Virus record (IMG/VR): IMGVR_UViG_3300026097_001139
Coordinates: 1 to 64,000 of that record
DNA length: 64,000 nucleotides
Strand: one strand, 5' to 3'
DNA from: a virus
Position 1 is the first letter of the stretch, and each line of letters starts with the position of its first letter. The notes under the pieces were generated by a model. The model was not told where the DNA came from. It worked only from the letters and a program-made list of their open reading frames with translations, and did not search any database. Both the position numbers and the translations under genes were made by a program. Shown piece after piece: positions 4,884 to 29,290 of this stretch.

Positions 4884-4886
4884 AAT

Positions 4887-7654: not shown

Positions 7655-9357
7655 GCTATGCTAACACGTTGAACAGTATTCAAGAAACATACAGTGTTGT
7701 ATCCACAGTGGATTTGGATTCTTATGCTGACATGCACTATGAAGACATGCAACAGCAATTGGTAGAATTACTTGCACGATTGCGCAAAGACGAATATACA
7801 GATCAAGAAAGGTTGGTGTTTACAACTACCACAGACAGTTATGTGCAACAAGACACAGTAGGCTTAGTTCTGCAAAATTTACAATTAGCCTTAAATCATG
7901 TTGACATCAGCAATTTTTTTGTTATAATAGTAACTAACAGTACACACTGGCAGGAACAACAAGAACGACTTAACAATCTAAGTCATGACCCTGTGCCAGT
8001 TGAATTCATCTACGTAAAAGAAGATGAACATCACAGAAGAATACTAGAACGCTTGCCAACCAGTAAAAAAGACGAATACCGTTACGGTAGTCTCAATCCA
8101 ATTAAAATTGATTTAAAAGACGTAACTGACAGTGAACAGTTTTTGCTGACTGGCAGTAAACGTTTTTGTATCTATCCTTGGATTCATTTACATGCATATC
8201 CCACTGGTGATGTTTATCCTTGCTGTCATGCAGAAATGCGCGAAGGTCCAGCAGGTAATGCCAAGCAAGATACACTAGAGAATATAAACAACAGTGACCG
8301 CATGCGAGAACTTCGCAGAGACATGCTCTCAGAAAAGTCAAACAGCTGGTGTACTAGATGCTACGAACAAGAAGATGCAGGATTTTTTTCTGGTAGACAA
8401 AGTGCTAACAAGCATCATGGTCACCATATCGGGCGAGTCAAAGATACCAATAAAGATGGCAGTGTAGATAAGTTTTCCATGACCTATTGGGATATAAGAT
8501 TCAGTAATTTGTGTAATCTCAGTTGCAGAAGCTGTGGGCATATCTTTTCAAGCAGTTGGTATCAAGATCAAGCCAAGCTTGCAGGCGAAGATTGGAAAAA
8601 AGAAAACAGTGTGCTCATCTATGCAGGCAGACATGAAACTGACATGTGGGAACAGTTGGTTGAGCATATAGACGACGTAGAACAGATATACTTTGCCGGT
8701 GGCGAACCACTGTTGATGATAGAACACTACAATATTCTAGAAGAACTGGAACGTCGCGGCAGATTTGATGTTAGACTGATCTACAACAGCAACTTCACTG
8801 AAGTCAAACTCAAAGACAGACTGGTGTTTGATTACTGGAAAAAGTTCGACAGTGTAGCTGTGGGTGCCAGTTTGGATGCTATGGGCAATCACGCAGAATA
8901 CATTCGCAAAGGCACAACCTGGGCAGACGTAGAACGCAACAGAGAACAGATGTTGAAAATTTGTCCTGATGTTGACTTTTATATCAGTCCCACTCTTAGT
9001 ATAATGAATGCCTGGCACATAACTGATTTTCATCGAGACTGGGTAGAAAAAGGATTGTTGCGTGCGCAGGATCTCAATGTAAACATATTACAGGATCCTA
9101 AACACTATCGAATTGACATAGCTCCGCCTGAATACAAAGCACAGCTACAACACAAATGGGAACAGCACCTTGAATGGCTGAGACCGCAAGATGATTTACA
9201 GCGTGCTACTCAAGGATTTGAGAGTGCAATACGTTTTATGAACAGCACAGATAATACAGCACTTATTAACGAATTTTGGAGCAAGACCAGCCAGCTCGAT
9301 CAAATACGAAAAGAAAACATACTAGAACAAATTCCAGAACTAGAGGCACTACGATGA
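7651..9357 (+). CDS. Twitch-type radical SAM protein with extra N-terminal domain
   Basis: A protein of about 568 residues. The start at 7651 forms an ATGA overlap with the previous stop. Residues 1-150 form an alpha/beta domain with no recognised motif. Then comes FCIYPWIHLHAYPTGDVYPCC (split C173, C191-C192) and C234-x2-C237 in CTRCYEQEDAG, matching the cysteine block of phage proteins called twitch-domain radical SAM. The core motif is C288-x3-C292-x2-C295, with AGGEPLL further on. The auxiliary ligands lie upstream of the core, the reverse of classic SPASM enzymes. It leads a second radical SAM subfamily with the next gene and that at 10983. The substrate is unknown. Confidence 0.87.
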   Translation: MSYANTLNSIQETYSVVSTVDLDSYADMHYEDMQQQLVELLARLRKDEYTDQERLVFTTTTDSYVQQDTVGLVLQNLQLALNHVDISNFFVIIVTNSTHWQEQQERLNNLSHDPVPVEFIYVKEDEHHRRILERLPTSKKDEYRYGSLNPIKIDLKDVTDSEQFLLTGSKRFCIYPWIHLHAYPTGDVYPCCHAEMREGPAGNAKQDTLENINNSDRMRELRRDMLSEKSNSWCTRCYEQEDAGFFSGRQSANKHHGHHIGRVKDTNKDGSVDKFSMTYWDIRFSNLCNLSCRSCGHIFSSSWYQDQAKLAGEDWKKENSVLIYAGRHETDMWEQLVEHIDDVEQIYFAGGEPLLMIEHYNILEELERRGRFDVRLIYNSNFTEVKLKDRLVFDYWKKFDSVAVGASLDAMGNHAEYIRKGTTWADVERNREQMLKICPDVDFYISPTLSIMNAWHITDFHRDWVEKGLLRAQDLNVNILQDPKHYRIDIAPPEYKAQLQHKWEQHLEWLRPQDDLQRATQGFESAIRFMNSTDNTALINEFWSKTSQLDQIRKENILEQIPELEALR

Positions 9358-10577
9358 ATTTACCGCATGAACAATTTTGCGTGCTACCATGGATAAGTTT
9401 AGAAACAAGTCCTATTGGCACAGTGCGCCCTTGTTGCCTTGCAGAAGATGAAATCAAAGACAACAACGGTGAAAAGTTTGAACTTATTGCCAGCGATCTG
9501 GGAGAAATACAGTGTAGCGATTACATGCAGGATCTGCGACAACAGTTCTTGGATGGTAAACAGCCGCGAACCTGTAGGAAATGCTGGAAAGAAGAACGTG
9601 CAGGACGCACCAGCAAGCGTATGCACACGCTGGATCGGTTAAAACATGTGTTACCAGATCAAGAATGGACAGTTGACGCAAAGCCGTTGATGTTTCTTGA
9701 TCTCAAGCTTGGCAACATTTGCAACCTCAAGTGCAGAATCTGTGGTTCGTGGTCTAGTTCACAGTTTGCCGCTGAAGAACTGCAATTTCACAGAAGGGAA
9801 GAAGGTGATCGAAAAGACAGCTATCATTATGAAATGCTGAAAAAGGGAGCCTGGCCAAAAGAAACAGAAACATTCTGGGATCAATTTGACAGCGTAAGCT
9901 CGGATATCCGCTATATCGAATTCACAGGCGGCGAGCCGTTTATGATCAAAGAACACTTTAGAATACTGCAAAGTTTAGTAGATAAAGGCATTGCTGGCAA
10001 TGTGGAAATACACTACAATACCAATGGTACCATCTACCCCGAAGAAGGCGAAGCTCTGTGGAAACATTTTAAGACTGTAGAAATTGCATTCAGCATAGAT
10101 GATGTAGAAGATCGTTTTGAATATCAACGCAGCAATGCAGAATGGCACACTGTAAACGAAAATATTACCAGGTTCCGCGATCTCAAACATAGATATCCAG
10201 GAAAAATACAATTACAAGTGTGTAGCACAGTAAACGTATTCAACGTCTCTTATCTTGAAACGTTGGCTAATTGGATTGACCAACAAGAGTTTGATTTTGT
10301 GTATTGGAATATGATGCACGAAGCCTACTACTTTAGTATCAGTACATTGCCCAGTCGTGCAAAATATGAAATTGAACAAAGACTGCGCAGTGCACAGGTT
10401 AGCTCCAAGCACAAACAAGAGTTTGAAAATATCATAGATTTTATGAACGGCGGACCAAGTCATGATGGACAGATTCTCAGAATGAAAGTGAGAGACCTGG
10501 ATTTCAAACGCAGTCAGGACCTGAGAACGCATCACAGTGAACTAGCAGAGTGGATTGAATACGAGGGCGTACAGTGA
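9354..10577 (+). CDS. Twitch-type radical SAM protein, type B2
   Basis: A protein of 407 residues starting at 9354, where ATGA overlaps the preceding stop; a longer in-frame extension upstream is read by the other gene and is not needed. It opens with FCVLPWISLETSPIGTVRPCC (split C9, C27-C28) and has C74-x2-C77 in CRKCWKEERAG. The radical SAM motif is C123-x3-C127-x2-C130 and the SAM motif is FTGGEPFM. Domain order matches the neighbours at 7651 and 10983 but without the 150-residue N-terminal domain of 7651. It probably takes electrons from ferredoxin. Confidence 0.87.
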   Translation: MNLPHEQFCVLPWISLETSPIGTVRPCCLAEDEIKDNNGEKFELIASDLGEIQCSDYMQDLRQQFLDGKQPRTCRKCWKEERAGRTSKRMHTLDRLKHVLPDQEWTVDAKPLMFLDLKLGNICNLKCRICGSWSSSQFAAEELQFHRREEGDRKDSYHYEMLKKGAWPKETETFWDQFDSVSSDIRYIEFTGGEPFMIKEHFRILQSLVDKGIAGNVEIHYNTNGTIYPEEGEALWKHFKTVEIAFSIDDVEDRFEYQRSNAEWHTVNENITRFRDLKHRYPGKIQLQVCSTVNVFNVSYLETLANWIDQQEFDFVYWNMMHEAYYFSISTLPSRAKYEIEQRLRSAQVSSKHKQEFENIIDFMNGGPSHDGQILRMKVRDLDFKRSQDLRTHHSELAEWIEYEGVQ

Positions 10578-10996
10578 AAGTAGGGTTTACATGCAGTACA
10601 TTTGACCTGTTGCATGCTGGACATGTAGCAATGCTTCGTGAAGCAAAAGAACAATGCGATTATCTAATGGTAGGACTACAGGTTGATCCAAGTCGAGATC
10701 GTCCTAATAAAAACGCACCTGTGCAAACACTGGTAGAAAGATATACACAGCTACAAGCAGTGCGTTATGTAGACGAAATTGTAGTGTACGAAAACGAAAG
10801 AGATTTAGAAGACATTCTGGAAATGATGCACATAGATGTGCGGATTCTAGGCGAAGAATACCGAGAACACGATTTTACCGGAAAGGATATTTGTAAAAAA
10901 CGTGGTATTCAGTTATACTTTAACAAAAGAGAACACCGTTTTAGCAGCAGTGATCTAAGACGAAGAGTAGCCTCTCTAGAAAATGCAAAAACCTAA
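10574..10996 (+). CDS. Cytidylyltransferase-family nucleotidylyltransferase (glycerol-3-phosphate type)
   Basis: A 140-residue protein, near the usual length of the glycerol-3-phosphate cytidylyltransferase (TagD-like) group. The N-terminal FTCSTFDLLHAGH contains the HxGH nucleotide-binding motif (H14, H17). The C-terminal HRFSSSDLRRR sits where the family has its RTxGISTT-type signature and is altered, so the exact substrate is open. It would activate a phosphorylated polyol or sugar as a CDP derivative. GTG at 10574 overlaps the previous TGA. Its position between two radical SAM genes suggests that an activated building block feeds the same pathway. Confidence 0.82.
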   Translation: MKVGFTCSTFDLLHAGHVAMLREAKEQCDYLMVGLQVDPSRDRPNKNAPVQTLVERYTQLQAVRYVDEIVVYENERDLEDILEMMHIDVRILGEEYREHDFTGKDICKKRGIQLYFNKREHRFSSSDLRRRVASLENAKT

Positions 10997-12299
10997 AGAA
11001 AAACCGTCAAGTCTGTGCATGGCACCGTGGACTCACACCTATCTTAGTCCTCAGACAGAACGCAGAATGTGCTGTGCCAGCAGAGAACCTGCACAGAACT
11101 TCAAGCAGTATATCGACACTGATACAGGCACCGGCGAATACAATCCAAGCACACTAGAAGAACATTGGAACAGCGAACACATGAAAAATGTGCGTCGTAG
11201 AATGATGGCAGGCGAAACACTCAACGAGTGCGAAGTGTGCAATAACAAATTGCTGAATACAGATGTATACAGAGACTACTTCTGGCATCTGTTTAAGCAT
11301 CACTACAACGATATTTGGGAAAAAACCGACGAGTCAGGGCATACAGATATGCAACCTGTTAGTTGGGACTATCGTTTTAGTAATCTCTGCAACTTTAAAT
11401 GCAGAACCTGCGGGGACATGTTGAGTTCAGCCTGGGAAACTGAACAGCGTAAAAACAACATGATCAATTGGGACGATCCAAAAAACAACTGGATGCGTCC
11501 CGAAGTCCGCGCAGAAATATCCAAATTTCAAGACACTCAGATTGAAGCCGAGTTTTCACAAGCTGTAGAAGAACACAGAGTGCAAGAAGTTTATTGGGTA
11601 GGCGGAGAACCTTTGATGTACGAGCAACATTGGAGGTACATGTCCAGGATCGTAGAATTGGGAGACGGTCCTGGACTTTATGCTCGATACAATACAAATC
11701 TCAGTAGAGTTGAATACCAAGGCACGCACTTATACAGAGATATTATCAAAAATATAAGAGACTGGCAAATCTGTGCCAGCATCGACGGCACCGGGCCCAT
11801 TGGCGAGTATATTCGCACGGGATTGAATTATCAACAATTTTTAGACAACTTCAAACAAGGCGTTGATATACAGAAAACACGCAGGCAGATGCGATTGGAT
11901 TTTACACTCACGTTGCCGGGCTTGTTTGAAGTGGAGGCAATGCAACAACTTGCAGATGAGCTAGGCGTGGACTTACTTGCAAAAGTAATCTTTGGGTTTT
12001 CGCCTGACATTGTGCTGAGTCCACTGGCACTGCCTAAGGAATTGCTGGACAAACAGATCGATCAACTGGCGCACAGTGTACCTGATGGTGCACTCAAAGA
12101 TGTGCTAGTACAACTGAAAAACAGGCCAACGTTTCAGGAGCAATGGCCTGGTCAGTGGCAATCGGGCTTGGTTGCTGGAAAAAAACGTATACTGCGTTTA
12201 GAGAGTATTCGCAACGACAAGTACACTCTAGACGATATTTTACAGGAACACAATAAGGAAATTTATGACTGGTGGCAATCAATTCCAATTATTGGATAA
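10983..12299 (+). CDS. Twitch-type radical SAM protein, type B3
   Basis: A 438-residue protein with N-terminal LCMAPWTHTYLSP (C12), a CC pair at 30-31, and C83-x2-C86 in CEVCNNK. The radical SAM motif is C136-x3-C140-x2-C143, followed by WVGGEPLMYEQHW. The RFSNLCNFKCRTCG context is typical of phage twitch-domain radical SAM proteins. It overlaps the nucleotidylyltransferase gene by 14 bp and the next gene by 35 bp. It is the third member of the B subfamily in this operon. The function is unknown beyond the class. Confidence 0.87.
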   Translation: MQKPKEKPSSLCMAPWTHTYLSPQTERRMCCASREPAQNFKQYIDTDTGTGEYNPSTLEEHWNSEHMKNVRRRMMAGETLNECEVCNNKLLNTDVYRDYFWHLFKHHYNDIWEKTDESGHTDMQPVSWDYRFSNLCNFKCRTCGDMLSSAWETEQRKNNMINWDDPKNNWMRPEVRAEISKFQDTQIEAEFSQAVEEHRVQEVYWVGGEPLMYEQHWRYMSRIVELGDGPGLYARYNTNLSRVEYQGTHLYRDIIKNIRDWQICASIDGTGPIGEYIRTGLNYQQFLDNFKQGVDIQKTRRQMRLDFTLTLPGLFEVEAMQQLADELGVDLLAKVIFGFSPDIVLSPLALPKELLDKQIDQLAHSVPDGALKDVLVQLKNRPTFQEQWPGQWQSGLVAGKKRILRLESIRNDKYTLDDILQEHNKEIYDWWQSIPIIG

Positions 12300-13520: not shown

Positions 13521-15038
13521 ATGATACTGGGAATTAGCGCAGGGTTTCACGATGCGGGCGTATGTGTGCTTGACTATGACGGCAATATACACTTTGCATC
13601 TCACAGTGAAAGATTCAGCAAGAAAAAACATGACAAGCATCTGTGCAAGGCGATCCTAGATCGTTGTTTTGAATATCCAATTGAGCATGTTGCATACTAT
13701 GAGCGTCCTTGGATGCACAACATGCAACAATGGATCAGTGGACAATCAGTAAGTCAACACTGGAGTCTCAAAAGCACATTGAAATCAATACTGGGAGATT
13801 ATTGGAATCCACAGTTATCTACCAGTTGTTATCCGCATCATCTCAGTCATGCGGCTGCTGGCTTTCAGACTTCTCCTTATGACGATGCTACAGTAGTTGT
13901 GATTGATGCCATTGGTGAATTAGACACGATCAGTATATATTATGCATACTATGATAACAAAGGTCGTGCTCGTTATAGAAAGCTTTGGGGACAGAGATAT
14001 CCACACAGCATTGGTTTGTTTTACAGTGCGATCACACAGCGTGTTGGTCTGCGTCCAATGGATGAAGAATATATTACCATGGGAATGGCCGCATTTGGAC
14101 ACGAAAAAGCCAAGTCATTGATGACCAGCAATGTGCTCGAAACACAAATGAAACAGCGATATCTTTACAGTGATAACAAATTACAGTTCAAAGAAAACTT
14201 TCACACAGGTATAGATGCCAGTCATTGGGAAGACTACAGCAACGAAGAGATAGCATTTGCAGCTCAAACCATTGCAGAAGAACTTATTCAAGATGTAATG
14301 TATACTGCCGCTCGACTGGGAAACAGTAAAAATTTAGTTTACATGGGAGGAGTGGCACTAAACTGCGTAGCCAATCGCAACATTGGGCTCAACTTCGACA
14401 ATGTGTGGATCATGCCCAATCCTGGTGATGCCGGCAGTGGCTTGGGTTGTGCTGCACTGCATTATGGCAAGCGTGTCAACTGGGAACACCCATACACTGG
14501 CACCTGTATTGAAGGCGAGTATCCTGTAAATGAATTGCTAGATGAATTGTTATCCAATCGCATAGTAGGAGTAGCAGCCGGTGGTGCCGAGTTTGGCCCT
14601 AGAGCACTGGGCAATAGAAGTCTGCTGGCAGATCCTAGAGGCGATGACATTAAAGATCTAGTGAACACTATTAAAAAACGTCAAAAGTTTAGACCATTTG
14701 CTCCAGTGATACTGGAAGAATACGCAGATCAATATTTTGATATGCCTCGAGGATTTTCAAGCAGTCCGTACATGCAGGTAACAGCATACTGCAAACATCC
14801 AGAACTGTTTCCTGCTATTGTACATGTAGATGGCACAAGTCGAGTGCAAACAGTGCCCAAAGACAGTGCCAGTGGCATAAGACAACTACTAGAAAAATGG
14901 TATGTGTTAACAGATTGTCCTATGCTGCTGAATACCAGTTTAAACATTCGCGGAGAGCCAATGATTGACACTGTAGAAGACGCCATAAGATTCGAACAAT
15001 TGTATAACACTCCTGTGTGTACTCCTAAAAAAGGTTAA
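13521..15038 (+). CDS. Carbamoyltransferase, NodU/CmcH family
   Basis: A 505-residue protein. The N-terminal MILGISAGFHDAG and PHHLSHAAAGF (H106, H107, H110) match the Kae1-like, ATP-using half of the family. The C-terminal GGAEFGPRALGNRSLLADPR and FRPFAPVILEE are signatures of the carbamoyltransferase C-terminal domain. Family members make carbamoyl-adenylate from carbamoyl phosphate and transfer the carbamoyl group to a hydroxyl on a sugar or antibiotic. Here a glycan or small-molecule acceptor is inferred. It is slightly shorter than typical members (about 550-600 residues). AAGG precedes the ATG. The ferredoxin reductase gene follows after 8 bp. Confidence 0.93.
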   Translation: MILGISAGFHDAGVCVLDYDGNIHFASHSERFSKKKHDKHLCKAILDRCFEYPIEHVAYYERPWMHNMQQWISGQSVSQHWSLKSTLKSILGDYWNPQLSTSCYPHHLSHAAAGFQTSPYDDATVVVIDAIGELDTISIYYAYYDNKGRARYRKLWGQRYPHSIGLFYSAITQRVGLRPMDEEYITMGMAAFGHEKAKSLMTSNVLETQMKQRYLYSDNKLQFKENFHTGIDASHWEDYSNEEIAFAAQTIAEELIQDVMYTAARLGNSKNLVYMGGVALNCVANRNIGLNFDNVWIMPNPGDAGSGLGCAALHYGKRVNWEHPYTGTCIEGEYPVNELLDELLSNRIVGVAAGGAEFGPRALGNRSLLADPRGDDIKDLVNTIKKRQKFRPFAPVILEEYADQYFDMPRGFSSSPYMQVTAYCKHPELFPAIVHVDGTSRVQTVPKDSASGIRQLLEKWYVLTDCPMLLNTSLNIRGEPMIDTVEDAIRFEQLYNTPVCTPKKG

Positions 15039-15046
15039 ACTAAAAA

Positions 15047-15754
15047 ATGTCAGAACTAGTAGAAATTATTGAAGTAGAACACTACACAGATCGCCTGTTT
15101 AGATTTAGAACAACAAAGCCAAAAGACTTTACTTTTCGGGCCGGTGAGTTTACAATGATAGGAATGGGGGATGATGATCTCATGAGAGCATACAGCATTA
15201 CCAGTGCCCCTGAAGATCCTTTTTTAGAATTTTACAGCATTAAAGTCCCGGACGGTCCGTTGACAAGTAGATTACAGCATGTTAAAATAGGAGATACAAT
15301 TGAAGTAGGTGATCGCCCAACTGGCAGTTTAACTACACAATTTGTAAAGCCTGGCAAAGACTTGTGGTTAATGGCTACCGGCACTGGTATTGCACCTTTT
15401 ATTAGTTTGTTAAGAGACGGTGAGATATTTGACATCTACAACAAAGTACACGTAACATGGACAGTGAGAACACCTGCTGAACTGTTGTGTTATCACGAAT
15501 TTTTACAGGATCTTGATATACATTACTTTCCAACAGTTACCCAAGAAGAATTTGCTAACACGGGACGTATACAAAAATTTATTGAAGCTGGTACCATTAT
15601 GGAAAACAGCAGTCCCGAAACAGATCGTGTAATGTTATGCGGAAGCATGGCTTTCAATAAAGACATGAAACAGTTGTTGCTAGCTGCAGGCTACGAAGAA
15701 GGCAACAAGAAAAATCCAGGTACGTTTGTGCTAGAACGTGCATTTGTAAGCTAG
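15047..15754 (+). CDS. Ferredoxin--NADP reductase-like flavoprotein
   Basis: A 235-residue protein. RAYS at 47-50 is the FAD-binding RxYS motif, GTGIAPF at 112-118 is the NADP-binding glycine loop, VMLCGSMAF is the conserved Cys-Gly segment, and the end ([11 protein letters not shown]) resembles the short C-terminus of bacterial Fpr-type reductases. It should move electrons between NADPH and ferredoxin. The ferredoxin gene follows eight bases later, so the two form an electron-delivery pair. In a phage full of radical SAM genes, the obvious inferred role is reduction of their 4Fe-4S clusters. Confidence 0.9.
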
Positions 15755-16105: not shown

Positions 16106-17125
16106 TTATTGGTCTCCTGAGCATTGTTGCCCGCAATGCTCGGCGCATGCTACTAACCTGCCGGTTTCGATAGTTTCTTTCCAGGTCGGTGGGATACTTT
16201 TAAACCATTCAACACATTCTTCTAGACTGTATTTAAATAAATCGTTTTTGGCTACTAACTGTTTAATTTGCCCATTTCGATAAATCATATCGCCTGCGCG
16301 ACCCGTGTATGTTTCTGGTGCATTGCCAATGTAGCAGCAAGGATATACTTTGCCATCGCTGCTTACATATATATTTCTATCTTTCATTGCTTCGCAAACA
16401 ATGGTTTTTTGATTATATATTTTTTGAGTATACTTGCTTGGAGAACTATCTATGAACTCTTTTGTAGTAAGGATGTGCTCAACATCAATTTTAAATTCCC
16501 GGCCGATCCAGTATATCACGTTTTTGTTTTTATCTATTACAGGACCATTATCGCGCCTGTGGTCTTTAACTTCAAATTGATCAAACCCTAGTTGTTTGCT
16601 AAGTTCACGTGCTTCTTCGATTTGATGTTGATTATGTTCAAACACCATAAAAACCCAACTAGTTTTACCGCCTGCATTTCTAACTGTTTGTGCATTCTCT
16701 AGTATTGTATTAAAATCAGTATTTCTTCTGTACAGTTTATGAGTATCTTCGAGGCCGTCTATTGCAAAGAAAATTCTGTCTGTCACACTAGCAAGATCTT
16801 TCCAAAAATCTAGATCACGTGCATTGCCGTTTGTGCTTATAATTAAATTAGCGGTTGGATTATGCTTACGAAAGTATTGCATAATAGCAGGCGTGTCGGG
16901 ATTCATTACAATATCGCCAAAGTTGCCGCACACATTTATTTTGTGAAGTTGTGCAATAAACTCTGGTTTAAATATTTGTTTTACTTCCTTTAGCGTCAAG
17001 TTCCGTTCAACATAACCTGCATTAGTAGGGTGCCCGAACACATTTCTCAGGCATAAAGGACACTCTGCGTTGCATAAACTTGATAGTTCTAAGTCTAATC
17101 GGCGTATAAACTTATAGTGATACAT
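16106..17125 (-). CDS. Radical SAM protein with C-terminal SPASM-like cysteines
   Basis: A 339-residue protein. SLCNAECPLC gives C18-x3-C22-x2-C25. The SAM region is unusual: VCGNFGDIVMNP replaces the common GGEP. The C-terminal half contains DGKVYPCCYIG and CAEHCGQQC, typical of SPASM auxiliary-cluster ligands. The stop lies two bases from the convergent fdxA stop, and the ATG shares its A with the TAA of the upstream amidinotransferase. Substrates of this SPASM class are commonly peptides, but sugars are possible here given the neighbours. Confidence 0.88.
   Translation of the reverse strand: MYHYKFIRRLDLELSSLCNAECPLCLRNVFGHPTNAGYVERNLTLKEVKQIFKPEFIAQLHKINVCGNFGDIVMNPDTPAIMQYFRKHNPTANLIISTNGNARDLDFWKDLASVTDRIFFAIDGLEDTHKLYRRNTDFNTILENAQTVRNAGGKTSWVFMVFEHNQHQIEEARELSKQLGFDQFEVKDHRRDNGPVIDKNKNVIYWIGREFKIDVEHILTTKEFIDSSPSKYTQKIYNQKTIVCEAMKDRNIYVSSDGKVYPCCYIGNAPETYTGRAGDMIYRNGQIKQLVAKNDLFKYSLEECVEWFKSIPPTWKETIETGRLVACAEHCGQQCSGDQ
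16119..16141. other. Perfect 8-bp hairpin just past the fdxA stop
   Basis: GAGCATTG and CAATGCTC flank a 7-base loop. It starts 16 bp after the fdxA stop but lies inside the 3' end of the convergent radical SAM gene. No T run follows on either strand, so it is not a standard intrinsic terminator. It could protect the 3' end of the plus-strand transcript or be coincidental. Confidence 0.35.
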
Positions 17126-18162
17126 TACAAATAACTTTCTAAACCACCTTTTCTAGAAAGATCTTGTGTACAGCAGCTGATTCCACCGTCCCAGAAGTAA
17201 CTGTGACGAAGTTCACTTACTATAGGATTTATTTTATGTTTTTCGCAGTAGTCAAATACCTGCTTATTATAGGCTGAGAATATGACATTCTCTTCATCTA
17301 GCACAAGGCAATTAACATCAAACACAGTGTCTTCGACAAATCCAACCCATTGACTTAAATAGCTGTCAACAAAGTTTGAAAATTCTGGAGTAGGTGTCTG
17401 TCCTGTCACATACCAACGCCCGTTAAAGTTTTCCTGTTTAAACTTGCCAACTTCCATAGCCGCCCATATTGAACTGTCCCAAATCTTACAAACGTCCCAA
17501 CCAGGAAAGTCGCCTGCTAGATCCAGCTGGTCGTCCCATTTACTACTTAATAACACACCTGGCTTGAGAATAGCAAACACTGCATCGCCATGGCCATCAG
17601 TTACAGCTTCGTGTATACGATAGTCTGGGCCTAGCACATTGTCAACAATCCAGCGTGTTTGTTCTGGTTTCAAATAGTCTGAATTGTCAAAGAAAACGTC
17701 TTTACCAACACGTACAATACAACTAGCACTGGCTCCGTTGAGCACACAGTTTTCGTCCCATTCTCCTTGGTGCGGATTAATCACTTGATCCGGATTGTGT
17801 TGTTCTAAATCTGCACAGATATTATCCAATTCTTGCACAGGCAGCACACGTAGTAATTTGTCGCCTAGTGTAATCTGCCAGTCTCTTGGCGTAAGAGGCG
17901 GAAGCGGAGCACCTTGATCAGCAATCTGTTGTTCATGAAAACGGTTTACATCGGGTAGGTCTGGTCTACGGACCTTTGCACCATATTCTTCTATGGTCTT
18001 TTGTAGGTTTTCTAGATCTTCGGCACTTTCTTCAAGTATCTGACTGAGTTGATTGAATACTTGTTTGTCTTCGATAAACTCAAAATGTTCTGGTGTAAAC
18101 ACACTGCCTATAATTACTTCTTCCAGTGGTTGCCAACTAGTGTAACTGTTAATTTTACTCAT
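17125..18162 (-). CDS. Amidinotransferase (glycine/inosamine amidinotransferase family)
   Basis: A 345-residue protein in the pentein-fold amidinotransferase family. It begins with NSYTSWQPLEEVIIGS, the usual opening strand. DGHGDAVF carries the catalytic His, and SYFWDGGISCCTQDL near the C-terminus carries the nucleophilic Cys (family: GGGIHCMT). The length is near that of family members. The enzyme would move an amidino group from arginine to an amine acceptor. With a carbamoyltransferase and oxygenases nearby, an aminated sugar or cyclitol acceptor is inferred. Its stop overlaps the start of the radical SAM gene downstream. Confidence 0.85.
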   Translation of the reverse strand: MSKINSYTSWQPLEEVIIGSVFTPEHFEFIEDKQVFNQLSQILEESAEDLENLQKTIEEYGAKVRRPDLPDVNRFHEQQIADQGAPLPPLTPRDWQITLGDKLLRVLPVQELDNICADLEQHNPDQVINPHQGEWDENCVLNGASASCIVRVGKDVFFDNSDYLKPEQTRWIVDNVLGPDYRIHEAVTDGHGDAVFAILKPGVLLSSKWDDQLDLAGDFPGWDVCKIWDSSIWAAMEVGKFKQENFNGRWYVTGQTPTPEFSNFVDSYLSQWVGFVEDTVFDVNCLVLDEENVIFSAYNKQVFDYCEKHKINPIVSELRHSYFWDGGISCCTQDLSRKGGLESYL

Positions 18163-18170
18163 AATTTAAT

Positions 18171-19295
18171 TTATTCTTCCCATACATATGGATCTTTTTT
18201 GCGTACAGCAAAAGTTAGATACGTGTTTATTTTTTCCATGTCATGATCGTTGCGCATTACTAGAAATTCATCAGCAAAGTGCAATTCTATTTTCTGCTGT
18301 AAAGCGAGATTTAACAATTCATTTCTTCGGTGGTATTCATCTGGTAATGAATGTATGCTAGGTAATACTATTCCGTCAGCATCACATGTTTGTAAATACC
18401 ATTCGAGCATCATATGCCAATCGTTGTTGTCAAATTCTCCATCTTCATAAGATAGTTTTATTTTATACATATCACAATAACGGCTGATAGTGCTTCTTTG
18501 CATTGGATAACTAAGATTTTTTCCATATTCGCTAGCCCAACTAACAAAACTAATAAATTTTTTGTCTGACAAATCAATTGGCTGGCTAGTGTAGTAATCG
18601 CCGGGGATCCTAAAAAATCCGCCTGGGCTTCGACGACCGTATTCTTCTCCTTTGAGTAAAATTCTAACGTCGATACTTGCCCTAGTGTAGCCTTCGTTAT
18701 TGTTTACGTTGCCGTGTATATGTTCTTGGAAAAATAAGTGACTTTGTCCGGGGCTCAAATTTACTGGCCAGGCATGCTTTAAACTTTCTTCTTCGAATTT
18801 TTTCATTGACCATTTTTCTAATATTGTTTGACGGGTAATCCTACGGCTATCTTCTAAGTCCAAGATCCACATTGTATTAGTATCTCGAGCCTCAGTTAGA
18901 GGATTCCAAAAGGTTCTGCACCCTCGTCCATTGCCGACAAAGATGCCTTGGTGAAAGATCAGTTTTCTATTTTCTTTGGCTTGATTCGGAATAACAACAC
19001 GCATAGTTGCTTGTCGTTGAATCAAATAAGGCAAATTGTCGATTATAGGTTCAGCATATTCTTTAGCAAAAGAATCAATTAACTCCATCCAGTCTTTACG
19101 TAGGAATGCTGACTGAACATAGTATTGTATTTTTAATATTTCGTCAGGGGTAAATTTTTTGTGAATAGTTTCGAAACAGTTAACACTAGGGTGAATTTCT
19201 TGAACAACTTTTAGGGCCCATTTGGTGAAATCATATCTACCAAGGTCATAATTTAAGGTTTTATTGTTCCAGTGTATTTGATGACTCTTAAGCAT
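18171..19295 (-). CDS. Fe/2OG oxygenase-like fused to sporadic carbohydrate cluster protein; HxG variant
   Basis: A 374-residue two-domain protein. Residues 1 to about 255 resemble the Fe(II)/2-oxoglutarate oxygenase of sporadic carbohydrate clusters. The metal site reads H115-Q-G117 and H194, with Arg at 205/211; the paralogue at 28163 has H-C-D at the first site. Fe/2OG halogenases also have Gly or Ala there. Residues from about 265 to the end (ADGIVLPSIHSLPDEYHRR, then IELHFADEFLVMRND) look like the separate LIC12192-type sporadic carbohydrate protein, so this is a fusion. Family names are from memory. A role in unusual sugar modification is inferred. A small gap separates it from the amidinotransferase. 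Confidence 0.75.
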   Translation of the reverse strand: MLKSHQIHWNNKTLNYDLGRYDFTKWALKVVQEIHPSVNCFETIHKKFTPDEILKIQYYVQSAFLRKDWMELIDSFAKEYAEPIIDNLPYLIQRQATMRVVIPNQAKENRKLIFHQGIFVGNGRGCRTFWNPLTEARDTNTMWILDLEDSRRITRQTILEKWSMKKFEEESLKHAWPVNLSPGQSHLFFQEHIHGNVNNNEGYTRASIDVRILLKGEEYGRRSPGGFFRIPGDYYTSQPIDLSDKKFISFVSWASEYGKNLSYPMQRSTISRYCDMYKIKLSYEDGEFDNNDWHMMLEWYLQTCDADGIVLPSIHSLPDEYHRRNELLNLALQQKIELHFADEFLVMRNDHDMEKINTYLTFAVRKKDPYVWEE

Positions 19296-19355: not shown

Positions 19356-20483
19356 TCATCTATCAATACCCTTTATTTTAAAATCTTTTTTCATTTGCTC
19401 TAGCATCAGTTCTAGCTCTGTCCAGAGCACAGTTTCAAATCCGCCGTTGTAGAAATGTTCGTAATTATGCTGAATAGTCGGCATCATTGCCTTGTACATG
19501 GTTGTTCGTTCATCAATTGTCATACTATCTATCTTTTTGCATAACTCAGCTACTTTTTCTAGTCTACGATAATCATCTGGCTCTTGATCATAGCTTTCGT
19601 CCCAAAAATCGTCGAATGTTCTAAATCCATAAAGCTTGAGATACTCTAAACTGCCTTGTGGAGCAACCAGTATAAATGGCATTTGTAAACAGATTGGCTT
19701 GAATGTTTTTTCTGTAAGATGATGTCTGCGACCAGAATACACTGTTTCTGTAACAACATAGGCAAAACTTTCTGCTGATTCTTCAAACAAACTCAACCAA
19801 CAACTGTGCATAGGATGATCTGTTTCGCCTGGGAATTGCCAAGGTAAATCAGCATCACAAAGTGTCTGTTCAATGTCTGGATAATGTACGCTGAATTTTG
19901 CAGCAATATCTTCTATGTTTGTATTTTCCACCGGACAGGTTCTTGGACAGCTTAACCAAGCATTTTGTATTTTTTGTTTAATAAATTGATACATTAGCAG
20001 CACTCTATGATCACGTTTACCGCCTACGATGCGTGTAGGACATATAAAACTGCGGTTCATGGTCCTGTCTTCTGGTGCAGGCATCAACCATGAACGATTG
20101 TATCCTCGATACCAATCCATGGCTGCCCACCCGTGAAAGAAATAGTAATAATGTTTCCATCCGTAATCATCGCATATTTGTTCAACAAACTCGCTGTTGT
20201 GCTCACTGGTAACAATTGCTTTACCAAATGCTTCCCTGTCAAAGTCAAGATCTCTACTGCGTTCCGCTACCTCGCCAAAAAGTGGTCTGTGTAGGTCCAA
20301 ATGAATTGGCTCTTGGTCGTGAAAGTATATATAATGTAGTTCATGGAGATCATGTCCATAATTATATAAACTATCCGGATCACTTCTTCCGGGAGGATCA
20401 CAGAAATACATTCTGCATAAAGGTATATTTTGTTTTATCCACGGCCAAAACACATTGTTATAAAGTTCGTCAATTCTAATCAT
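19356..20483 (-). CDS. Glycosyltransferase-like protein (TEK-motif family)
   Basis: A 375-residue protein. The C-terminal region VTETVYSGRRHHLTEKTFKP, then PFILVAPQGSLEYLKLYGFRTFDDFWDESYD, matches the block in the genes at 199, 48030 and 49176 and recalls GT10/exostosin donor-site motifs. N-terminal residues include HDQEPIHLDLHR and several Trp/Tyr-rich stretches. Its start codon overlaps the divergent start of the large repeat protein: CAT and ATG share two bases. Any promoter must therefore lie inside the opposite gene. Sugar transfer is inferred; donor and acceptor are unknown. Confidence 0.65.
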   Translation of the reverse strand: MIRIDELYNNVFWPWIKQNIPLCRMYFCDPPGRSDPDSLYNYGHDLHELHYIYFHDQEPIHLDLHRPLFGEVAERSRDLDFDREAFGKAIVTSEHNSEFVEQICDDYGWKHYYYFFHGWAAMDWYRGYNRSWLMPAPEDRTMNRSFICPTRIVGGKRDHRVLLMYQFIKQKIQNAWLSCPRTCPVENTNIEDIAAKFSVHYPDIEQTLCDADLPWQFPGETDHPMHSCWLSLFEESAESFAYVVTETVYSGRRHHLTEKTFKPICLQMPFILVAPQGSLEYLKLYGFRTFDDFWDESYDQEPDDYRRLEKVAELCKKIDSMTIDERTTMYKAMMPTIQHNYEHFYNGGFETVLWTELELMLEQMKKDFKIKGIDR

Positions 20484-23481
20484 GTTTGATATTTTTTACC
20501 TAGGAAATCGTGCACCCAAAGGTGTACATGCTGTTCGTGCTAGAGATATAGATCATGCGTGTGAAATGTCTCGTACTCGATATTATTGGATTGTTGATTA
20601 CTTATCTGATTACAGAGAGTGGGATTTTCTTTGGGAACCAGCACCATGGGAATCACATCAGCGTCATGCTTGGCCTAACCAGCATCAACTAGATGGTGGC
20701 ACATATCTGGTGCCAAAAGCAGGCTTCGCAGAAACCAATTGGCATGAATCGCCCGGTGTGCACAAATACAGCGACCCTGATCTATGGTACATACCAGACT
20801 ACATAGACCCAGCAAGTATTGATTTACAGTGGAGTCCAGATCCAATGGATCCACCTTACATATACGAGTTTCCTGTAGAATGGGGATGGAACAGAATAGG
20901 TGGACCAGAATATAGAATGCCTAATGCTGTGGGTAGAAAATTTGTCAGTGATTTTGTTGCAACAACTCAACATGATAGATCACTGTTTGATATACAGGAT
21001 AATCTAGCTGATGACGATCCACTATTCCGCTGGCGCCCAAATCCAACAGAACCTCCTTACGTGTATGTGTTCGGCAATCAATGGTGGCCGGCTACGCAAA
21101 GAACCAGTGTTACGTATACAGTAGAAGGTGCAACAGAAAAGAAATATGTTGCAGATATTTCCGCCACTCGTATTGCGGACACCGCGCACTATCGTACGCT
21201 GGAAAACTGCAAGTTTGACTACAGTTGGGAGCCAGATCCAGCGGATCCACCTTATGTGTATGTGTTCGGCAATCAATGGTATTCTGGCGAAATCATGCCC
21301 ACTGTGGAGTACAATGTACCTGGTGCCACTGAACGCAAATTCCTGGAATATCCGCAGGCAACACTGTTTGCTACACAAGAAAATTGGTACGTGCCTGATC
21401 ATGAACGTGACTTTGACTTTGACCGCAGTTGGTGCCCAGATCCTGGAGATCCGCCTTACATGTATGTGTTTGGCAATCAGTGGCACAACGCTGAAATAAT
21501 GAGTACCATTGAATATCATGTGCCCGGTGCAACAGAGCGCAAGTTTATGGAAGAGCCTGTTGCTACACTACTTGCTGACCAAGACGGTTGGACAGTGCCC
21601 GAAGAGGTTGATGCAGATGCAGTAGACTTTAGTTGGATACCAGATCCCGGGGATCCTCCTTACATTTATCACTTTGGCACTGAGTATCAAAGCAGTGTAA
21701 ATTTAACCTACACTGTAGAAGGTGCTACGGAAATTAAATTTGCAGGTGACATACCCAAGCGCAAGCCTGATACAAGAGCAGTTAAAACCCTTGATATTTT
21801 TTATATGGATCGTTCTAATGCAGTATCTCGCAGTCGCTTTGAACAGTTACAAGAACGCTACCCTGGCATACAGAAAGCACGATATTTTGGCAGTGTGTTT
21901 GACACTGTAAAGAGATGCGCTGGTAAATCTAAAACCCAGCGTTTTTGGGTAATCGGTAGCGAAAATGACTATTCAGAATTTGACTTTGATTGGCATCCAG
22001 AACCTTGGCAACGGCACATGACTCATGTGTTTGGAAGTCAGTGGAATAAATGGAGCGATACATTCTTAATCAATCGTTGGGAGTTTGACAGACACAGTCG
22101 TTGGGCAAAAAGCATTGAAGAATTTCCAAACTTGAACTTTGTGGAAAATCAAACAGTGCAAGCACCAGCGGACGCTTACAGCATTTACTTAATTGATCAC
22201 GGCAATCCAGAGAGCTTGCAAACATTTGAATACCTTGAACAGAACTACAGAGTGGTTAAACAGGCTAGATATTTTGACAACTATTTAGACACACTAAAAC
22301 GACTTGTTGCTGACGTAGAAGAAGAATACATTTGGGTTGCCAGCTCTGTATGTGACTATAGCCAGTTTGATTTCAGTTGGCAACCCGAAGCATGGCAACG
22401 TGAAATGCTTCATGTGTTTCCTAGTAACGAACAAAAGTTTGGTGATACGTTTTTCTTGCATGTGCCAAGTTTTAAGCGTGGCTGTGATGTTGAGTTATTG
22501 GATTGGTTTGAAACCGTGAACTATGTAGAAGTACAGCAAGCACCTCGATGGCCAATACCAGTGGTAAAACATAATGAATCTACACATGTTATGGCAGTAA
22601 AGAATCACACAGCGCAAGCGCCACTCTCACTGTTTACCAATGAATCTGCTCCAGTGAAATATCCTACGGTGAGTCTATGGCGCCGCGAAACCAAAACTGT
22701 TGTTCCGTTAGACCGCGGTGCCTCCAGTGTAATTGTGCCAAAAGAAGCACATGCCTTAGTTCGAACACAGATATATGACTACCCATACATAGACAAAACA
22801 CATAATACAAATGCAGTTGAGCCACTGGAGATAGTGTTTGTCAGCAACGGAGAAACCGTGGCACAGACGCATTTACAGCGTCTACGTGCGGCTCTGCCCG
22901 GCGATACACAGTTACACGTAGTAGAAGGTGTAAACGGACGACTAGAAGCATATAAACAAGCTGCTAATAGCGTAAAAACCGATTGGTTTATCCTAGTACC
23001 TGCTAAATTGGCGGTTTCTGACGAGTTTGACTGGTTTTGGCAACCAGACCGATTACAACAGCCAAAGCACTATATTTTCCATGCTTACAACCCTGTTACG
23101 GGCTTAGAGTATGGGCACATGGCTGCTGTTGCGTATAATCGTGAACTATTATTACAAAGTGCAGGAGATCAGCTGGATCTAGCCATGGAAAAAGCACACG
23201 AAGTAGTTCCAGTTCTAAGCGGCGTTGCAGAATACGGCGATGACATAACAGAGTGGCGCACAGCTTTTCGTGAAGTGCTAAAGTTGCGTGCAAGTTTGCC
23301 TGATATTGAAAATGAGTACAGACTTGGTGTTTGGAAGGAGTGCACTAGTAAGGTAACCCAAGAAGCAGTAGTTGCGGCAATGGAATACTATGACAGTGTT
23401 AATGGCAACGTAGACAAGCTACAAAATTCCTTTAGTTGGGATTGGGTAAACCGCCATTACGAAAAATTGAGTGCCAACTAA
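20482..23481 (+). CDS. Large repeat protein with glycosyltransferase-like modules
   Basis: A 999-residue protein in three parts. Residues from about 115 to 435 are five tandem units of some 65 residues, each with a WxPDPxDPPYxYxFGNQW core and a VPGATExKF segment. Residues about 437-560 and 566-690 are two copies of a module beginning LDIFYMD/YSIYLIDHGN and ending HVFGSQW..DTF; a related copy opens the protein. From about 782 a module (LEIVFVSNGE, later DWFILVPAK and EFDWFWQPD) resembles the glycosyltransferase-2-like domain of marine phage proteins. No strong ribosome-binding site precedes the ATG. Carbohydrate binding or transfer on a surface glycan is inferred. Its 3' end overlaps the convergent gene by 50 bp. 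Confidence 0.75.
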   Translation: MFDIFYLGNRAPKGVHAVRARDIDHACEMSRTRYYWIVDYLSDYREWDFLWEPAPWESHQRHAWPNQHQLDGGTYLVPKAGFAETNWHESPGVHKYSDPDLWYIPDYIDPASIDLQWSPDPMDPPYIYEFPVEWGWNRIGGPEYRMPNAVGRKFVSDFVATTQHDRSLFDIQDNLADDDPLFRWRPNPTEPPYVYVFGNQWWPATQRTSVTYTVEGATEKKYVADISATRIADTAHYRTLENCKFDYSWEPDPADPPYVYVFGNQWYSGEIMPTVEYNVPGATERKFLEYPQATLFATQENWYVPDHERDFDFDRSWCPDPGDPPYMYVFGNQWHNAEIMSTIEYHVPGATERKFMEEPVATLLADQDGWTVPEEVDADAVDFSWIPDPGDPPYIYHFGTEYQSSVNLTYTVEGATEIKFAGDIPKRKPDTRAVKTLDIFYMDRSNAVSRSRFEQLQERYPGIQKARYFGSVFDTVKRCAGKSKTQRFWVIGSENDYSEFDFDWHPEPWQRHMTHVFGSQWNKWSDTFLINRWEFDRHSRWAKSIEEFPNLNFVENQTVQAPADAYSIYLIDHGNPESLQTFEYLEQNYRVVKQARYFDNYLDTLKRLVADVEEEYIWVASSVCDYSQFDFSWQPEAWQREMLHVFPSNEQKFGDTFFLHVPSFKRGCDVELLDWFETVNYVEVQQAPRWPIPVVKHNESTHVMAVKNHTAQAPLSLFTNESAPVKYPTVSLWRRETKTVVPLDRGASSVIVPKEAHALVRTQIYDYPYIDKTHNTNAVEPLEIVFVSNGETVAQTHLQRLRAALPGDTQLHVVEGVNGRLEAYKQAANSVKTDWFILVPAKLAVSDEFDWFWQPDRLQQPKHYIFHAYNPVTGLEYGHMAAVAYNRELLLQSAGDQLDLAMEKAHEVVPVLSGVAEYGDDITEWRTAFREVLKLRASLPDIENEYRLGVWKECTSKVTQEAVVAAMEYYDSVNGNVDKLQNSFSWDWVNRHYEKLSAN
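20827..21780 (+). repeat. Five tandem coding repeats of about 195 bp
   Basis: Five in-frame units encode the PDPxDPPYxYxFGNQW/PGATE motif. Units start near 20827, 21025, 21220, 21420 and 21630. Units 2-4 are the most alike, sharing stretches such as ccttatgtgtatgtgttcgg, which points to expansion by duplication. The first unit has lost the FGNQW and PGATE consensus. Such arrays usually build elongated binding domains. Confidence 0.85.
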
Positions 23482-24298
23482 TGTTATTTTGATATGCATT
23501 TATTTTTTTGCTCAAAAAAACTGTATCAGGTAGACACTTTGGGTTAATGCCAGGAAATTCAGACCCTGGATTGTAACCTGGATCGAGTACCACTTTTTTT
23601 ATGCTGTCTAGGATTTCTTGTTCGTGTTCAATAATACGTTGTTCTATTGAAGAAAAATCATAATCAAACACTTGTTTCAGCCATGTTAGTGATTGTAGCG
23701 GAAATGGATGCAAATCCATAAATTTTTCTTTGAAGATTTTTTTTAATTGTTTTTCTGACTCCTTAACACTGAACCCTATAACTTTGTTAATACTCGGTAA
23801 TAACCGACTATATGTATCTTTATACACTTTTAATAGAACTTCTCTTTCTGGCGGAGGATGACCTACGGGCATAGTAAGTTCGTTAAATGACGAATGGTGT
23901 ATCTGTGCTTCGGTATTGTCTAAATAGGCCATTGTTGTGGTAATTAGATTAAGTTGATTGATCATTTTGCCAATGAGATAATCAGAAATTTCGATTGTAG
24001 GATCTCGTTCCCACTTTAAACATGATTTGCCATTGTGATTGTGTAAGTTTTCGTGTCTGTTTGGCTCAGTCCAAACAACTATTACTAAATCATCTTTTGT
24101 AAATTTGTGCAATTTATTTGCAAGCACAACTTGATTAGCAATGTATTGATTTGCACATGCGCAACGGCCGTAGTTATATGTTTTTATATCAGTGGCAAAT
24201 TGAATAATTTCTGGCCACATAGACCACCAATAACTGGTGAGACTACACCCAAATGCAAATATTCGCTCCGGTTTTTTATTATACAGAGGAGTTGACAT
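23432..24298 (-). CDS. SGNH-hydrolase-like protein
   Basis: A 288-residue protein opening RIFAFGCSLTSYWWSMWPE, the block-I nucleophile region of a phage SGNH-like family in which GCS replaces GDS. VIVVWTEPNR resembles the block with the conserved Asn. It may remove or add acyl groups on glycans; activity is not shown. The gene overlaps the convergent repeat protein by 50 bp and the ThyX stop by 20 bp. It belongs with three other SGNH-like genes in the window (52406, 57449, 58141). Confidence 0.65.
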   Translation of the reverse strand: MSTPLYNKKPERIFAFGCSLTSYWWSMWPEIIQFATDIKTYNYGRCACANQYIANQVVLANKLHKFTKDDLVIVVWTEPNRHENLHNHNGKSCLKWERDPTIEISDYLIGKMINQLNLITTTMAYLDNTEAQIHHSSFNELTMPVGHPPPEREVLLKVYKDTYSRLLPSINKVIGFSVKESEKQLKKIFKEKFMDLHPFPLQSLTWLKQVFDYDFSSIEQRIIEHEQEILDSIKKVVLDPGYNPGSEFPGINPKCLPDTVFLSKKINAYQNNISWHSIFRNGGLPNPN

Positions 24299-24968
24299 AC
24301 TGTGAACTCAACGGAAAGATTTCTGCGATAACCTGTGCAACAGCTCGGGCAATTTCCATGTGTTCTTTTTGTGTACCATTTGCGGCCCGGAGTTCGATAT
24401 AGTGGATCCAGCTACGCAGTGTGCCATTCATGTACATGCGACTTTTAGTAAGTCCTTCGGGTAATACTGCACGAGCCTGTTCTTTTGCAATGTTATTTTC
24501 AATGGCCCAGCGATATGCTTTACGAGCTTCGATAATCACACGCTCTTGTGCCAGTGCCCATTCTGTAGCCAGCTCTGTGTCAAGTCTGTTGTCTTCGTCT
24601 AGCTCGATTGAATTTTGACGATTTGTTGTATCCTGTAGTCTGCATTCACGAATTTCGAACTCTAAATCCTTCACTGGATCTGCATAACGCTGTGAAAACT
24701 CTTGGAAGCTGAAACTGCGATGACGTAGGATTTGTCTAGCAATGTCTCGTGTGGTTTCGATCTCTAAGCAAGCAGATACCATTTCAAACGGCGACCAGTG
24801 TGCATGCTTTGCAAGGTAGTTGAGTAGGCGAGTAGAGGTCTCTGTATTAAATTGATTCGATGGATTAGATACTCTAGCCGCATACGCAATAAGATCTTGC
24901 ACATCTTCAATACCTTCGTGTTCAAAGTCAGAGCTTGGTTGACTGTAACTTACAAGTTTTACTTTCAT
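24279..24968 (-). CDS. thyX: Flavin-dependent thymidylate synthase ThyX
   Basis: A 229-residue protein of normal ThyX length. R82-H-R-x7-S92 is the ThyX signature, with S92 activating dUMP. ETTRDIARQILRHR and ARAVLPEGLTKSRMYMNGTLR are also typical. It makes dTMP from dUMP with methylene-tetrahydrofolate and NADPH through FAD. Phages carry it to feed DNA synthesis. It forms a unit with small genes upstream, overlapping the next start by four bases. Confidence 0.96.
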   Translation of the reverse strand: MKVKLVSYSQPSSDFEHEGIEDVQDLIAYAARVSNPSNQFNTETSTRLLNYLAKHAHWSPFEMVSACLEIETTRDIARQILRHRSFSFQEFSQRYADPVKDLEFEIRECRLQDTTNRQNSIELDEDNRLDTELATEWALAQERVIIEARKAYRWAIENNIAKEQARAVLPEGLTKSRMYMNGTLRSWIHYIELRAANGTQKEHMEIARAVAQVIAEIFPLSSQYVNSSV

Positions 24969-27899: not shown

Positions 27900-28172
27900 T
27901 TAATATTTAAGCTGAAACAGTACCGCGTCATGTGCGCACTTAAAGACAAATCGTACTCGCCATTCCGGTGTTTGAGTGTAGTTGTTGTACACAGCTACAC
28001 TGTTCCACCACCAGCGTTTTCCTTTGGTACCAAACTCCTGGCGAATCTTCCATAAATTTTTTTTCAGTAGTTCGTCATTGTTGTTATAATAACGTTCAAC
28101 TGCTGGCAGTGTGCTGTCTTTCCACTCGTCTGGCGTTATAGTTAGTGATCTATTATTGTCCACTATTCCCAT
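27900..28172 (-). CDS. Hypothetical protein, Trp-rich
   Basis: About 90 residues if ATG 28172 is used; an in-frame ATG at 28193 would add seven. It contains KRWWWNSVAVYNN and WRVRFVFKCAHDAVLF. The shorter start overlaps the stop of the oxygenase fusion gene, typical of this genome. The function is unknown. Confidence 0.65.
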   Translation of the reverse strand: MGIVDNNRSLTITPDEWKDSTLPAVERYYNNNDELLKKNLWKIRQEFGTKGKRWWWNSVAVYNNYTQTPEWRVRFVFKCAHDAVLFQLKY

Positions 28173-29290
28173 GGGAAATCGCCATCTTGCCATACAGCAT
28201 ATTTGTAATATTCATTTACCGTTTGTATATCGTCTGTAGTTTCTATACACAATTCTTCGTTGGCAAAAAATAATTTCATGTTATTTTCTATTGCAAAATT
28301 GCATAAAAATTCCCTGCGATCTTGGTCTTCTGGCAGTGCAAAAATACTCAACATTATTATACCGTCAAATCTTTTAGTTATAAAGTTTTCAAGTCCCGGA
28401 AGCCAATCTATAAACAATGGTTCGTGAATTTGTTGTGGTAAAAAATCAACGCTTGCATCTGATAGATCAAACTTTCTTGAATATGAATCTATAAAAGCTC
28501 TTTGCATGCCGAAAGGAATGTGTTTGGTAAATGCAGTACTGCGATTCAAGTAAACCAATAAATTAGAATTTTTGTCAATTTGTTTGCGTTGAGAATAGTC
28601 CCCGGGCAATCTAAAATACCCGCCAGGTACTCTTTGGAATGTTTCGTGACCTCTTATTAAGAATCTTGCATCGAAACTAAAACGAGTCTTTTGTGTAGTG
28701 TTGTTAATAGATCCGTGAACCCTTTCTTGATCAAATAACAAAAATTCTCCCGGACTTAAACACTTGTTCTTTGATAATTTATAGCATTCTTCGTCGAATT
28801 TTTTTGCAGGCCACCGGTTTTCTATAAATTTTGATACTAGATCTCTACTAGGATCTAGATCTGCAATATAAAGTGAATTTGAATCGTACGCATCTGTAAG
28901 AGGTATCCAAGCAGTCATACTGCCTCGTCCACCGCCTACAAGTGCGTCGCAGTGGAAATTAACACGCTGTCCGTGTGCTTCTTGACCAGGAATGACTACC
29001 CTTAGATTAGGTTGCCGTTGTACTAGATAATCGGTATGTTCAATTAAAGGTGCTACGTTATCGGCAAAAAACTTATCCAGCATGCTCATGTATTTTGTGC
29101 ATTTACTGGTTTTATCTTGCACATATCTGGCTACTTGTGCAATCTCTTTTACTGACAAGACTTTGTGTATAGTACTTAGATCAGATACATTGGGCCACTT
29201 TTGTTGAATTGTGTCGAGTGTCCAAGTGGTAAAATCCAATTTTGCTGTATCATAAGACCCAACAAAGTCTTGCGGGATATTATAAATCAT
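28163..29290 (-). CDS. Fe/2OG oxygenase-like fused to sporadic carbohydrate cluster protein; HxD form
   Basis: A 375-residue paralogue of 18171-19295 with the same two-domain order. The metal site is H113-C-D115 with H192 and Arg at 203/209, a complete Fe(II)/2-oxoglutarate facial triad. The C-terminal half (FDGIIMLSIFALPEDQDRREF, split around the Leu, then KLFFANEELCIETTDD) matches the separate LIC12192-type sporadic carbohydrate protein. A hydroxylation or related oxidation of a sugar is inferred. GGAG lies six bases before the ATG, directly after the terminator U tract. It lies between the two halves of the VWA/MoxR pair. Family names are from memory. Confidence 0.8.
   Translation of the reverse strand: MIYNIPQDFVGSYDTAKLDFTTWTLDTIQQKWPNVSDLSTIHKVLSVKEIAQVARYVQDKTSKCTKYMSMLDKFFADNVAPLIEHTDYLVQRQPNLRVVIPGQEAHGQRVNFHCDALVGGGRGSMTAWIPLTDAYDSNSLYIADLDPSRDLVSKFIENRWPAKKFDEECYKLSKNKCLSPGEFLLFDQERVHGSINNTTQKTRFSFDARFLIRGHETFQRVPGGYFRLPGDYSQRKQIDKNSNLLVYLNRSTAFTKHIPFGMQRAFIDSYSRKFDLSDASVDFLPQQIHEPLFIDWLPGLENFITKRFDGIIMLSIFALPEDQDRREFLCNFAIENNMKLFFANEELCIETTDDIQTVNEYYKYAVWQDGDFPWE

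Follow-up and report, generated by a model that had tools for sequence, protein, structure and literature searches.

Natural Fe/2OG halogenases are recognised by an HXG/A motif, which is accepted as their signature (PMC12871659, PMC12346261, PMC8407142), and a single D157G change conferred chlorinating activity on SadA (PMC8407142). Human AspH hydroxylates without halogenating, and the water in its vacant site does not give way to halide (PMC10947486, PMC13168262). Cellular TIGR04324 proteins were collected by family search from a phylum sample and from the order of a Pelagibacter MAG; all 14 used for the tree and comparison carry HxD. In these organisms TIGR04323 is an adjacent, unfused gene, and the two are accompanied by genes for DegT-like aminotransferases, for NAD-dependent epimerases and for a split transketolase (neighbours assigned by reading their sequences). 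We describe here a viral relative in which both domains are fused and the HxD motif reads HQG. A literature search found no description of the HQG oxygenase family.

The HQG gene and its HxD paralogue

The window, which is the whole 64,000-nt stretch analysed, is part of an 88,386-base virus record. It contains the HQG gene and a paralogue (Table 1). Family profile searches matched the HQG protein to TIGR04324 (sporadic carbohydrate cluster 2OG-Fe(II) oxygenase; E=1.3e-19, 70.8 bits) and, within the same ORF, to TIGR04323 (LIC12192 family; E=6.7e-13, score 48.7), in agreement with the original prediction of an oxygenase fusion. Both scores miss the curated cutoffs (150 and 55, respectively), and the protein is a homologue that falls outside the curated TIGR04324 subfamily.

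The paralogue has the same TIGR04324/TIGR04323 arrangement and is 36-38% identical to the HQG protein in pairwise alignment. Around the motif, KLIFHQGIFVGNGRG of the HQG protein aligns with RVNFHCDALVGGGRG of the paralogue; likewise FHQGIFVGNGRG aligns with FHCDALVGGGRG across the motif, followed by the H194/H192 and R205/R203 pairs. The motif region is free of gaps, so the HxD register is correct and misregistration was rejected. Codons were read directly for the HQG gene (H115 18951-18953, Q116 18948-18950, G117 18945-18947 (GGC), H194 18714-18716, R205 18681-18683) and for the paralogue (H113 28952-28954, D115 28946-28948, H192 28715-28717, R203 28682-28684). Codons and alignment together confirmed what had been proposed for this pair, namely that Asp is replaced by Gly (H115-Q-G117) with His194 and the Arg retained, and that the paralogue keeps an ordinary H113-C-D115...H192 site. 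The paralogue has L and R where the HQG protein has H186 and H192.

Table 1. Features of the HQG locus, with positions in the window
Feature	Position	Strand	Basis
HQG oxygenase fusion protein, 374 aa	18171..19295	-	ORF; TIGR04324 and TIGR04323 matches; AF2 model
Predicted N-terminal PhyH-like Fe/2OG oxygenase domain, residues 28-212	18660..19214	-	TIGR04324; Foldseek PDB matches
C-terminal TIGR04323 (LIC12192) domain, predicted resolvase-like fold, residues 258-361	18213..18524	-	Profile match; Foldseek BFVD
H115-Q116-G117, altered HxD motif	18945..18953	-	Codons; invariant in 85 distinct viral proteins
H192-I193-H194, distal iron His and extra clade-specific His192	18714..18722	-	Codons; alignments
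H186, second clade-specific His	18738..18740	-	Codons; alignments
R205, 2OG-carboxylate arginine, 11 residues past distal His	18681..18683	-	Invariant; EctD spacing
Paralogue, ordinary H113-C-D115...H192 site	28163..29290	-	Family matches; alignment; codons
Amidinotransferase-like protein, next gene in same-strand run	17125..18162	-	phmmer
Radical SAM/SPASM protein, 1-base overlap with amidinotransferase gene	16106..17125	-	Pfam
Unannotated protein, upstream of HQG gene, same strand	19356..20483	-	Viral locus comparison

Conservation of the altered site

A first search of viral contigs returned 68 relatives; a second, whose alignment also took in HxD relatives, yielded 200, and 80 of these were retained. 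HQG was present in 138 aligned viral rows, together with H186, Q190-E191-H192-x-H194-G and R205. After deduplication all 85 distinct HQG proteins kept the motif, both iron histidines and R205. The only non-HQG rows were the window paralogue (listed twice), a near relative of it on two contigs (HCD) and one distant HKD protein. Loss or variation of the Gly in relatives, which the original prediction had named as evidence against itself, was thus not observed beyond these few rows. Mean pairwise identity among the 85 proteins was 62% (minimum 30%) and all four glycine codons (GGT, GGC, GGA, GGG) were used at G117, a pattern of purifying selection and not of the recent spread of a single allele. 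The HQG site is the product of neither chance nor decay, and a degenerate pseudo-enzyme was rejected on the grounds of this invariance despite codon variation.

The new observation here is that HQG is tied to H186 and H192 (H192-x-H194), both absent from every HxD relative. At the H192 position HxD relatives carry L, I, C or R. Residues fixed in HQG proteins and different in the HCD proteins and nearly all cellular ones were N11, Q116, G117, N122, P177, H186 and H192, suggesting that the whole metal surroundings changed as a package. The G117 change had been recognised correctly from the window, but the covarying positions, above all H186 and H192, had been missed along with Q116, N122, N11 and P177. 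Some retrieval patterns touched the H192 region (FFQEHIHG in the first search; [HL][LI]FxQ[EN][HLR]xHG, allowing H, L or R, in the second). None contained HQG, so its invariance is not a search artefact; some spanned H186-H194, so that of H192 may be overstated. E191 was kept in all viral members, including the HxD paralogue.

Carriers of the HQG gene were many uncultured aquatic phages, represented by viral contigs; a search of INPHARED phages with the HQG protein of the window gave no match. Ten other viral records, which may be fragments, had either the HQG protein only (8/10) or the HCD protein only (2/10), and in none of these possibly incomplete records were both found. Scans for further HCD relatives recovered only the two known contigs. 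Three viral contigs (L030, L111 and L114) each carry two HQG copies close to an epimerase gene; the copies diverge from each other and lie on opposite strands. In the tree, the split between viral fused proteins and their cellular counterparts had 100/100 support. The HCD pair was nested inside HQG on a branch of 1.41, but a single HQG clade was not rejected (AU p=0.058), so that Asp in the HCD copies was either retained or regained. Scanning cellular contigs for HQG with clade-specific patterns gave one contig only, in the Pelagibacter MAG; its adjacent genes match viral loci, so it is probably phage DNA.

Predicted fold

The AlphaFold2 model of the HQG protein (43-row alignment) had a pLDDT of 93 and a pTM of 0.90, and is predicted to adopt the PhyH-like, double-stranded beta-helix fold of Fe/2OG enzymes. 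Foldseek searches of the PDB returned CurA halogenase (E=1.9e-8), PtlH hydroxylase (3.8e-8), GriE, SnoN and SyrB2, with TM-scores of only 0.3-0.4 over the query. As a control, an AF2 model of the HxD paralogue was searched in the same way and matched ThoJ at rank 1, CurA-Hal at ranks 2-5 and SyrB2 at rank 8. Because the paralogue finds the same halogenases, these matches are a signal of the PhyH-like superfamily and silent on halogenation, and the top CurA-Hal match was discarded as halogenase evidence. In PDB profile searches the best match was PtlH (E=0.00027), followed only by a weak one to CytC3 (E=1.7), with no characterised halogenase below E=1; the paralogue alone gave no match in a PDB sequence search. 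Residues 115-116 and 193-196 form short strands in the model.

The C-terminal TIGR04323 domain matched serine recombinases in the BFVD viral structure library, and cellular TIGR04323 proteins gave weak Pfam matches to Resolvase and Pox_F16. The domain thus seems to fold like a serine recombinase, which would not be expected of the partner of a sugar-cluster oxygenase.

Gene neighbourhood

The amidinotransferase-like protein matched AGAT, StrB1-type and SxtG structures by phmmer (E to 5.6e-14). A comparison of 32 sequences showed its H191, D193 and C330 to be invariant, and the enzyme is therefore probably active. The protein encoded upstream of the HQG gene was without match in family searches and had counterparts in 14 of 82 related viral loci. 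Within three genes of viral HQG genes (86 contexts) we found an NAD-dependent epimerase/dehydratase in 50, a small PF05118-like oxygenase in 39, the amidinotransferase in 30 and a truncated DegT aminotransferase in 24. Most copies of the small oxygenase keep HxD, suggesting that loss of the Asp is specific to the HQG gene. The virus record that contains the window has its own epimerase (55% identity), at positions 71164-72099 of that record; a short query found no PF05118-like oxygenase in this genome. The neighbours point to a phage sugar pathway with amino, perhaps guanidino, substituents.

Radical SAM genes are unusually many in the window: seven lie in 1167-12299 (+) by Pfam, several with SPASM, and further ones at 16106-17125 and 38212-39177 (-) and 50329-51585 (+). 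Among the 82 related viral loci, about 13-17 have homologues close to the HQG gene. A NodU/NolO-type carbamoyltransferase gene (13521-15754, +) adjoins a ferredoxin-NADP reductase-like gene and is possibly part of the same sugar chemistry or of a DNA modification chemistry. A 999-aa protein with repeated 'PDPxDPPYxYxFGNQW'-like segments (20482-23481, +) gave no convincing family match and has homologues in 11 of the 82 loci. A ThyX-type thymidylate synthase gene lies at 24279-24968 (-).

Candidate functions of the HQG protein

Retention of H115, H194 and R205 implies Fe(II) and 2OG, and the HQG protein is best read as active and as a member of an HxG branch of the PhyH-like Fe/2OG enzymes that is restricted to phages and serves a phage sugar pathway. 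This branch, related to TIGR04324, lacks the carboxylate iron ligand and has its metal surroundings rebuilt with H186 and H192. Iron would be held by H115 and H194, and 2OG by the metal and R205. The substrate, a product of the epimerase/dehydratase, aminotransferase and amidinotransferase encoded nearby, would most likely be a nucleotide-sugar, or a sugar with an amino or guanidino group. An outside ligand would fill the place of Asp117, and chloride would be the single likeliest one, making the protein a radical halogenase; we give this reading a probability of roughly 40%. It is favoured by the invariance of HQG, both histidines and R205 across 85 distinct proteins whose codons vary synonymously, by the PhyH-like fold of a high-confidence model, by cellular relatives that carry HxD in sugar clusters, by the viral neighbours within three genes and by an Asp loss specific to the HQG gene. 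Halogenation itself is made plausible by the HXG/A signature and the SadA D157G precedent. The fold, as modelled, speaks for a halogenase no more strongly than it does for the ordinary paralogue, sequence kinship to a characterised halogenase is lacking (CytC3 E=1.7) and Foldseek does not discriminate. In no halogenase known to us do two additional conserved histidines lie close to the vacant site, and H186 and H192 could themselves be ligands. The earlier suggestion of a halogenase thus keeps its conserved HxG in a PhyH-like fold, but HxG is insufficient by the example of AspH, which carries it and does not halogenate (PMC13168262), and the fold match adds nothing specific.

That same example suggests a two-histidine oxygenase with water in the vacant site, oxidising the sugar or its substituent without halogen, which we consider somewhat unlikely here. 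AspH binds water tightly in the vacant site of its HXG...H centre (PMC10947486, PMC13168262), FIH remains partly active when its Asp is changed to Gly (PMC10947486), the cellular HxD relatives presumably act as oxygenases on sugars, and the polar H186, H192, N122 and Q116 could hold a water. AspH is, however, the sole well-characterised natural case, and most characterised natural HxG/A Fe/2OG enzymes are halogenases (PMC8407142). The signature pointed out originally is real, but a further option two residues before the distal histidine was not considered: H192 could fill the place of Asp117 from the distal His strand, giving an H115/H192/H194 site. The residue two positions past the distal His is turned to the 2OG carboxylate in EctD and PhyH (PMC2871039), so that the residue two before that His would point toward the vacant or substrate side of the metal. 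If 115 pairs antiparallel with 194, as the modelled strands may allow, 117 would lie opposite 192. HQG and H192 also occur together in 85/85 distinct proteins, with L, I, C or R in HxD relatives, and an HxH on a strand can chelate a single metal, as in carbonic anhydrase and cupins. With such a site the protein could still use 2OG, as an oxygenase with a new triad, or be a dioxygenase that does not depend on it. We hold the three-histidine site to be improbable; the kept R205 argues for 2OG use, the invariance of H192 is perhaps overstated by search patterns that touch its region, and only one or two evolutionary events underlie the covariation. That this widespread phage family either became a viral Fe/2OG radical halogenase for sugars made by the phage, or else moved its third ligand to His192 in a natural three-histidine centre, falls a little short of an even bet. 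A dead protein was another of the original options. Retained for binding or regulation while the HxD paralogue carries out the chemistry, it would fit the lost Asp and the paralogue in this genome. We regard it as very unlikely, given strict conservation of the iron His, 2OG Arg and Gly across the 85 viral proteins and viral records with the HQG protein only. Barely credible is a misaligned HxD or another carboxylate as third ligand: the motif alignment is gap-free, and E191, although kept throughout the viral members, does not make up for the lost Asp because the HxD paralogue has it too.

Significance and comparison with known systems

If the HQG protein halogenates, it would represent a family spread over many aquatic phages, probably acting on sugar-pathway intermediates; to our knowledge, no Fe/2OG halogenase family has been described in viruses before. 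If the site is a two- or three-histidine one, the family would be a natural experiment on what beyond the Asp-to-Gly change decides between hydroxylation and halogenation, a live question in enzyme engineering. The HxD paralogue encoded by the same genome and the 85 natural homologues with HQG allow a direct test.

The HQG protein shares with TIGR04324 and its TIGR04323 partner both domain matches, H115, H194, R205 and the sugar-gene context. Unlike the cellular members, which are HxD and encoded by two adjacent genes, it is fused, carries HQG, H186 and H192, and scores below the cutoffs. PtlH, GriE and SnoN have a PhyH-like fold, with PtlH as the best PDB sequence-profile match, and keep a carboxylate iron ligand. 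CurA-Hal, SyrB2 and CytC3 share the fold, the HxG/A...H motif and the 2OG Arg, but identity is only 10-14% and no sequence match is significant; at the positions of H192 and H186 in the HQG family, CytC3 has T and V. In contrast to PhyH-like halogenases, the HQG gene has no carrier-protein context. The H194/R205 spacing equals that of His248/Arg259 in EctD (PMC2871039). Human AspH (PF05118) resembles the HQG protein in its HXG...H two-histidine Fe/2OG site (PMC10947486) but belongs to another subfamily, and the PF05118-like neighbour of the HQG gene is itself HxD. VirX1 of cyanophage Syn10 is likewise a halogenase from a marine phage (PMC8407142), but it is flavin-dependent and unrelated in fold and chemistry.
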